Below are positions 18,898 through 20,538 of a DNA stretch of 47,709 bases, in pieces. The notes under the pieces are model-generated. The model saw nothing but the letters and a program-made list of their open reading frames with translations, was not told where the DNA came from and searched no databases. How positions within the stretch are numbered: position 1 is the stretch's first letter; every line of letters starts with the position of its first letter. The stretch comes from Methanobacteriota archaeon (lineage in GTDB: Archaea; Thermoplasmatota; Thermoplasmata; RBG-16-68-12): positions 1-47,709 of the forward strand of contig JAIBJG010000001.1 in assembly GCA_020029475.1 (NCBI GenBank), read 5' to 3'. A program made the position numbers and the translations under genes.

Positions 18898-18955
18898 AGA
18901 AAAAGGGGAGGAGGTTAGCTTCTGACCCCTCCGGGAAAAAAAGGAGGAGGGGTCA
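18898..18955 (-). terminator. Candidate terminator of ftsZ: hairpin plus T-tracts
   Basis: GACCCCTCC (18924-18932) / GGAGGGGTC (18946-18954) inverted repeat; on the minus strand TTTTTTT in the loop and TTTTT at about 18900; overlaps ftsZ stop codon. Confidence 0.55.
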
Positions 18956-19993
18956 TCGTAACCTCGGATAGAGGGAGAGCGGGTTCACCGTCTCGAGATT
19001 GGGGGCGGCCTCAACGGGCACATCGAGGTCCGGCGCCTTCAGCCCCGTGAGGACCGCGATCACGCGGATGATGTCGTGGTGGCGGGGGTCCACCCGGACG
19101 CCGAAAATCACGTTCGCGTCGCTCCGCATGTTCGCCGTGATGCCGTCCACGACGCGGAACGCGGTCCGAAGGGAGAGGGAGGGGCCCGAGGAGATGTGGA
19201 TCAGGGCCGCGCGGGCCCCCTTCGTGTCCACGTCGAGGAGGGGGTTCGACAGGGTCTCGCTCACGACCCGGTCCGGGTCGTCGATCGAGTTCTCTCCATA
19301 GAGGATCGTGGACGTCCCGCCTTCCGAGAGGACGGTTCGGACGTCGTTGAAGTCGAGGTTGATCAGGGACGGGAGGTTGATCGCCTCCGTCACCCCCTTG
19401 ATCACCTCCGCGATCAGGACGTCCATCACGCTGAACGCCCGCTCCACGGGGAGGTTCGGGACGAGGTCGAGGAGCCGGTTGTTGTCGAGGATGATGAGGG
19501 AGTCGCAGTTCGGCCGGAGGCGCTGAATCCCGGCCTGGGCGGTGCGAATCCGTCCGCGCTCGGCCTTGAATGGCGTCGTCGCGACCGCGATCACGACCGC
19601 CCCGCTCGCGGAGGCGAGCTCCGCGATGTGGGGCGCGACGCCGGTGCCCGTCCCGCCTCCGAGGCCGACGGTGAGGAAGACGAGGTCCTGGCTCATCACG
19701 AGGTTCCGGAGTTCGTCGTCCGCGAGGTCCGCGCACCGCTCCCCGATTTCGGGCCGGCCGCCCGCCCCCATCCCTCGGGTCACGGTCTGGCCGATCAGGA
19801 GCTTCCGGTCCGCCTCGACAGTCTCCAGGTGGGCGCGGTCCGTGTTCACGATTGCGGTCCGGGCGCCCGCGACGCCGAGGCGGTGGAGCCGTCCGACGCT
19901 GTTCCCGCCCGCCCCGCCGCATCCCACGATGAGGACCCGCGGTTTCGGGCAGGTGACGCTCGCTTCCCATCCCGTCGCGTTCGCCGTTCCCAT
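18953..19993 (-). CDS. ftsZ: Cell division GTPase FtsZ
   Basis: VLIVGCGGAGGNSVGRL, AIVNTDRAHLE, GLGGGTGTGVAPHIAELA tubulin signature, VIAVATTPFKAERGRIR, DSLIILDNNRLLDL, LINLDFNDVRTVL. Confidence 0.95.
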   Translation of the reverse strand: MGTANATGWEASVTCPKPRVLIVGCGGAGGNSVGRLHRLGVAGARTAIVNTDRAHLETVEADRKLLIGQTVTRGMGAGGRPEIGERCADLADDELRNLVMSQDLVFLTVGLGGGTGTGVAPHIAELASASGAVVIAVATTPFKAERGRIRTAQAGIQRLRPNCDSLIILDNNRLLDLVPNLPVERAFSVMDVLIAEVIKGVTEAINLPSLINLDFNDVRTVLSEGGTSTILYGENSIDDPDRVVSETLSNPLLDVDTKGARAALIHISSGPSLSLRTAFRVVDGITANMRSDANVIFGVRVDPRHHDIIRVIAVLTGLKAPDLDVPVEAAPNLETVNPLSLYPRLR

Positions 19994-20068
19994 CCCGTTC
20001 CTGCGGCGGCGCCGACGCCCCGCCGCGGTGCATCCCGTCCCGCCCCGTTGGCGGTGCGAGTGCGATCC

Positions 20069-20386
20069 CTAGCGTTCCGCCTTCTCGATCGCCCGCGTGA
20101 CCCGTCGCCGCACGTACTCCCGCACCGCGTTCCGGATCGCGTCCTCGACGCTCACGGAATCGCCCTGCTTCACGAGGTGCTGGAGCTCGACGACGTTCCC
20201 CTTGGGCAGCTCGATCGTCAGCTTCCGGATGTAGTCGGGAGCGAACTTCTGGTCGATGAACCGGTCGATCGCGGCGCGAATCGCGTCCGAGATCGTGTCG
20301 TAGTCCCCCTGCTTCACGAGCTGGTGCAGGTGCTGGATCTTGTCCGGGGGTATGCGGATCGTCACGCGCTCGGATTCCGACGCCAT
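20069..20386 (-). CDS. Tandem ribbon-helix-helix DNA-binding protein (CdrS-like by context)
   Basis: Two RHH units: VTIRIPPDKIQHLHQLVKQGDYDTISDAIRAAIDRFID and LTIELPKGNVVELQHLVKQGDSVSVEDAIRNAVREYVRR; directly upstream of and codirectional with ftsZ. Confidence 0.85.
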   Translation of the reverse strand: MASESERVTIRIPPDKIQHLHQLVKQGDYDTISDAIRAAIDRFIDQKFAPDYIRKLTIELPKGNVVELQHLVKQGDSVSVEDAIRNAVREYVRRRVTRAIEKAER

Positions 20387-20402
20387 CGTTCGGTCCCTGT
20401 CC

Positions 20403-20436
20403 TTGTCCGACACTTTCGCGAGCTTTGTCTGACAAA
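20403..20436. promoter_or_regulatory. Paired TGTCnGACA palindromes in the RHH-ftsZ promoter
   Basis: TGTCCGACA (20404-20412) and TTTGTCTGACAAA (20424-20436), centres 22 bp apart, downstream of minus-strand TATA-like CTTTAAGTAAG (about 20447-20457). Confidence 0.6.
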
Positions 20437-20538
20437 TGGCGGCACGCTTACTTAAAGATATGTCAATAATGGGCGTCAATAATGGGCCCGGAGCGGGATG
20501 AGCGCGCCCGTTCGGGCCGCTCTGCGGGGGTCCCCGGG

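Follow-up and report, generated by a model that had tools for sequence, protein, structure and literature searches.

What is known of how archaea time their division comes largely from haloarchaea and Sulfolobales. The closest described counterpart of the protein reported here is the haloarchaeal CdrS (NF058555; PMC7439475, PMC8406309), with which it shares a ribbon-helix-helix (RHH_1) unit with the strand RVTxR[IL]P, a position as the first gene before a codirectional ftsZ2, a putative GTCNGAC recognition box at ftsZ1, and an expected role in division. However, CdrS has 55 to 61 aa and one RHH unit, whereas our protein has 105 aa and two units with unlike contact residues. Its boxes lie 22 bp apart instead of about 11, and its own promoter carries a box, whereas Halobacterium relies on CdrL there. 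That single cdrS genes are syntenic with ftsZ2 in archaea at large has already been published, in a text without mention of a tandem form (PMC7439475). In Sulfolobales, aCcr1 (PMC7617429) is likewise a small archaeal RHH cell-cycle regulator, controlling the division gene cdvA; however, it has one RHH unit and belongs to ESCRT-based division, and the model match is weak (E = 0.17). A search of open-access papers for CdrS together with Thermoplasmata found none. TraY of F-like plasmids also combines two RHH units in tandem in a single chain, but it is a conjugation relaxosome protein, and the likeness drawn here is one of architecture.

In the 47,709-nucleotide stretch analyzed here (the window), which belongs to a 1.94-Mb assembly, the gene of a protein that Pfam RHH_1 matches twice (E = 1.5e-10) lies 75 nt upstream of ftsZ, both on the minus strand (Table 1), which confirms the preliminary description of a directly upstream, codirectional gene. 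The listed ORF of 157 aa starts at an upstream ATG that is absent from relatives, and the promoter lies inside its additional segment. The upstream neighbor of the RHH gene is a separate gene for a VIT/VWA protein. D1 and D2 are identical at 15 of 41 positions, and the repeat comprises the whole RHH unit. While the two RHH units first described are real, the string HLVKQGD that they were said to share is exact only as LVKQGD (QLVKQGD in D1 and HLVKQGD in D2), and it is local to this genome. The downstream protein passes NCBIfam TIGR00065 with 331 bits against a cut-off of 295. No TATA-like sequence was found when the gap between the two genes was scanned by sequence, which is consistent with a single rhh–ftsZ2 operon.

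Table 1 Features of the rhh–ftsZ2 locus, in window coordinates
Feature	Coordinates	Strand	Basis or remark
TATA-like box, TTTAAGTAA	20448..20456	-	upstream of the operator boxes; sequence; aligned TATA-like boxes in relatives
Putative operator box 1, TGTCAGACA	20426..20434		lies where transcription is expected to start; no second such pair in the genome
Putative operator box 2, TGTCGGACA	20404..20412		center 22 bp from box 1
CdrS-type tandem RHH gene with two RHH units	20069..20386	-	105 aa, stop included; ATG 20386, stop 20069
First RHH unit (D1)	20249..20371	-	strand ERVTIRIP; contact residues R-T-R, as in CdrS
Second RHH unit (D2)	20105..20227	-	strand RKLTIELP; contact residues K-T-E
rhh–ftsZ spacer, 75 nt, G+C-rich	19994..20068	-	sequence; no TATA-like sequence
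ftsZ, FtsZ2-type, 346 aa	18953..19993	-	TIGR00065; tree placement

Among the NCBIfam models, CdrS was the best match of the whole protein (2.2e-16), followed by NikR (4.5e-6), and it was also the top match of each half alone (E = 9.9e-11 for D1 and 1.3e-4 for D2). NikR, whose half-sites on DNA are separated by about two helical turns, consists of one RHH unit and a nickel-binding C-terminal domain; a Pfam search of our protein revealed no such domain, and identity with NikR was thus ruled out. Although CdrS is the best-matching model, the score of 59.6 bits is below the NF058555 equivalog cut-off of 100 bits, but this model is haloarchaeal, and single-RHH genes beside ftsZ2 outside Halobacteria fail the cut-off too. 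Both halves align to Haloferax CdrS, D1 with 37% identity, and the CdrS reading strand RVT[IL]R[IL]P is present in the first half only. With its length and two units, the protein is outside the single-domain size of CdrS (about 55–61 aa), whereas its position directly upstream of and codirectional with an FtsZ2-type gene, a class-wide arrangement, is that of CdrS. Among the loci searched, single RHH genes were found directly before ftsZ in Haloferax, Haladaptatus, Methanoculleus, Methanoperedens, Archaeoglobales, Thermococci, Bathyarchaeota, and sister Thermoplasmatota; the single form of CdrS was seen in Haloferax, Haladaptatus, Methanoculleus, Archaeoglobales, and sister Thermoplasmatota. 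By its placement, its box, and its first half, the protein is CdrS-like, and by the criteria tested it is a tandem variant rather than a CdrS equivalog. In a tree of FtsZ proteins, the window FtsZ is placed outside the FtsZ1 clade (support 99) and near the FtsZs linked to cdrS or rhh, and it is therefore assigned to the FtsZ2 type; the FtsZ1 clade includes the copies of this genome on contigs C76, C5, and C65.

In a tree of the halves built on 48 columns, the first halves group as a single clade (95/92) adjacent to single CdrS, while the second halves form a separate cluster with long-branch exceptions. The two class-wide clusters therefore fit one old duplication and fusion, and a recent local duplication was ruled out, as the first halves are one clade across the class. 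Of the original proposal that an RHH gene duplicated and fused, an old fusion of two units fits the tree, whereas D2 may be either a duplicate of CdrS or another RHH unit that joined, and the 48-column tree fits both.

A homologue of the tandem RHH protein is present in 56 of 61 relatives, so that the observation goes far beyond chance. The preliminary description held that a lack of conserved linkage to ftsZ in related genomes would speak against a division regulator. With family f22 set apart, an FtsZ domain on the RHH-coding strand begins less than 400 nt past the RHH stop in 64 of the 68 distinct class loci that have enough flank. Among the remaining loci, L043 has FtsZ at 1.1 kb, and L053, L074, and L075 are without it. 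In f22, which is Thermoplasmatales-like (L092–L096, L058), the tandem RHH protein is kept, but the linkage to ftsZ is found in none of five loci; G059 has no strong FtsZ1 match. The two-unit chain is retained class-wide, and a few tandem RHH–ftsZ pairs occur outside the class (L091, L286, L287, L366). Chance adjacency to ftsZ is ruled out by the class-wide linkage, and together with CdrS as the best model for both halves, this linkage supports the proposal of a CdrS-equivalent division regulator coupled to ftsZ. McrA is carried by two families of the same class, as in Methanomassiliicoccales, from which the class is taken to be Thermoplasmata; the order of the window is not among the McrA families sampled. 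In G060, a second, divergent tandem RHH gene precedes an additional ftsZ, and one TGTCAGACA box is present (L066). In sister groups (L368–L374), other tandem RHH proteins of ~128 aa occur without linked ftsZ, mostly with GTCCGAC boxes upstream.

What is new here is the putative operator, a pair of 9-bp palindromes carrying GTCNGAC, 22 bp apart in the promoter between the TATA-like box and the start codon. The pattern GTCNGAC-N15-GTCNGAC occurs once in the 1.94-Mb genome, at this promoter. Across the 61 genomes it has 47 sites, 36 of which (in 33 genomes) are in the promoter of the tandem RHH gene, while the reversed control pattern has two. At least one box lies within 120 nt in 68 of 71 tandem promoters, compared with 1.6 expected from shuffles. 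Among the 11 other pair sites, three are upstream of another ftsZ (L281, L282, L283), and several have the look of chance occurrences, the DNA being G+C-rich. Two more (L278:3780-4139 and L279:3646-4110, in G050 and G060 of one genus) stand before related small secreted acidic proline-rich proteins that have no Pfam match and are possible further regulon members. A cluster of boxes is also present in a genome whose RHH match is no more than weak (L280, G058:C8:56156-56285). Upstream of the TATA-like box of the window, at 20457-20484, a 12-bp direct repeat (CCCATTATTGAC, two copies) was noted that was not seen in the promoters of relatives.

The same box is found at ftsZ1. In this genome, the ftsZ1 gene on contig C76 has GTCCGACAGACGTATGAC immediately upstream of its TATA box, in the form GTCCGAC-N4-GTATGAC, of which one half only is perfect; 23 relatives have a similar sequence. 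Directly upstream of the ftsZ1 TATA, GTCNGAC-N4-G(T)ATGAC is present in 24 of 30 close loci, phased at 11 bp; in the order-mates f2 and f3, the box was not found at ftsZ1. In Haloferax gibbonsii, ftsZ1 is preceded by GTCGGAC-N4-GTCTGAC, one of five perfect GTCNGAC-N4-GTCNGAC pairs (11 bp) in that genome, and another has hisB (Pfam IGPD, E = 2e-62) on one side and a gene for a small membrane protein on the other. The ftsZ1 and hisB loci are among the 18 CdrS ChIP-seq sites in H. volcanii (PMC8406309). As the GTCNGAC box marks the same two loci in H. gibbonsii, it is very probably the CdrS motif, a match made by target locus and not by published logo. A further whole class, methanogens included, has a recognizable CdrS-type regulator whose precise putative operator marks ftsZ2 and, in some of its members, ftsZ1 as well. 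This makes the circuit predictable from sequence, and the DNA box allows a direct test, so that archaeal division wiring can now be tested outside salt-loving species.

Comparing the promoters of tandem and single forms, a second box at +22 (at least five of six letters) accompanies perfect boxes in 49% of tandem promoters and in 5% of single-RHH promoters, the sets being related by descent and thinned only by simple identity. Single-RHH promoters show a weak enrichment at about 10 to 11 bp. In tandem promoters, the site at +11 is not conserved (mean 1.55/6 against a background of 1.38), and that at −11 is a weak partial one (2.21). Judged by eye, Methanoculleus (L217), with its single RHH, also has two boxes spaced by 22 bp, so the contrast is statistical and not absolute. 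It is quite possible, although short of an even chance, that the fusion of the RHH units and the doubling of the operator period went together, single-RHH lineages retaining boxes that stand singly or about 10 to 11 bp apart and tandem lineages strong boxes at 22 bp, and that a tandem dimer covers two turns of DNA, one of its units being specific and the second relaxed. If true, a joint change in size of regulator and operator would be naturally recorded here, in a core division circuit that reaches ftsZ1 and ftsZ2. The class offers a natural case of a fused, putatively duplicated RHH protein with two differently specialized halves, and of operator spacing that is unlike between single and tandem forms.

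From these data, we consider it probable that the tandem CdrS-type protein is a repressor of the ftsZ2 operon to which it belongs and a regulator of ftsZ1, probably an activator. Two chains would pair D1 with D1 and D2 with D2. The D1 pair would read each palindrome via Arg-Thr-Arg as CdrS does, while the D2 pair, with Lys and Glu bridging across the strands, would lie on or near the neighboring turn of DNA and join neighboring units, and one tandem dimer would span about 22 bp. With start sites predicted from the TATA box, the box over the predicted start suggests autorepression, and binding there would subject the rhh–ftsZ2 operon to negative feedback. In H. volcanii, ftsZ1 falls upon cdrS repression (PMC8406309); as the box upstream of the ftsZ1 TATA resembles that of Haloferax, binding at this site would probably activate ftsZ1, and the levels of FtsZ1 and FtsZ2 may thereby be kept in balance. 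CdrS has not been reported to bind its own promoter in H. volcanii, and in Halobacterium it is CdrL that binds there (PMC7439475), so that autorepression is not carried over from earlier work. Counting against the proposed circuit are the CdrS score below the cut-off, the imperfect box on C76, the missing ftsZ1 box in f2 and f3, the unlinked loci of f22, and the weak conservation in the 11-bp register beside the strong boxes.

The preliminary description saw in the fused protein an intramolecular pseudo-dimer. Its two halves would be paired within the chain, and it would behave like a single CdrS dimer at a single palindrome. A strand pair requires two RHH units, and these can function when joined by design in one chain, as with Arc; perfect single palindromes do exist, and the class retains the two-unit chain throughout. 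However, the DNA-facing strand positions of D1 are R, T, and R in 54, 54, and 56 of 56 sequences, whereas the outer two of D2 are K/R and D/E in 48 of 56, and such half-specific contacts (R-T-R and K-T-E) would read a symmetric box unequally. AlphaFold monomer models from two runs (22 and 56 sequences) contain four helices and a linker, from the second helix to the next strand, of only about 6 to 7 residues, and neither run produced paired strands within the chain, at pTM values of 0.41 to 0.42 that make this a weak argument. Moreover, the shift of the box spacing to 22 bp in tandem lineages fits a two-unit footprint and not a drop-in dimer. In RHH geometry, K and E would face each other across a D2–D2′ strand pair, whereas D1–D2 pairing sets R against K; homotypic pairing is therefore favored, and pairing between two chains is likelier than within one. 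With symmetric boxes, unlike halves, and monomer models devoid of strand pairing, the pseudo-dimer is unsupported, and we regard it as improbable. A rather unlikely arrangement, though less so, is that only D1 binds DNA, with D2 as a module for dimerization or for binding a partner such as another regulator and the 22-bp pair as two CdrS-type sites on one helix face. This would agree with the acidic residue of D2 where CdrS and D1 have arginine (in the same 48 of 56) and with the unconserved +11 site, but D2 is by eye the more conserved half, a weak partial site remains at −11, and at ftsZ1 the neighbor 11 bp away is constant, GTATGAC.

The opposite signs that our preferred circuit assigns to the two operons are likewise open to challenge, as the regulator might instead activate both or repress both. 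Halobacterium CdrS activates ftsZ2 (PMC7439475), which would suit regulation of one sign, whereas the box is over the predicted start at rhh–ftsZ2 and upstream of the TATA at ftsZ1; a common sign is conceivable but on balance doubtful. That the protein is a toxin–antitoxin antitoxin, or another RHH protein beside ftsZ by chance, is extremely improbable. ParD RHH folds are the best Foldseek matches of the model halves, but none has E < 1e-3, and a PDB sequence search gave weak antitoxin matches only (E of 0.1 and worse). CdrS outscores the ParD models by ten orders of magnitude, no toxin gene is present at the locus, and the class as a whole preserves both the ftsZ linkage and the box. A ParD-type antitoxin was thus rejected, the downstream gene being ftsZ and not a toxin in the 64 linked loci and the operator being conserved.

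Two further elements were noted at other loci. The haloarchaeal cdrS promoters L214 and L215 have GTAAGAC-N4-GTCTTAC in place of the GTCNGAC pair; as CdrL occupies this promoter in Halobacterium, the sequence is possibly the CdrL box. In many relatives, the ftsZ1 leaders (L311–L340) contain a repeated GGGATGGGATG just before the start codon, and GGGATG is also present in the rhh–ftsZ2 gap of the window.
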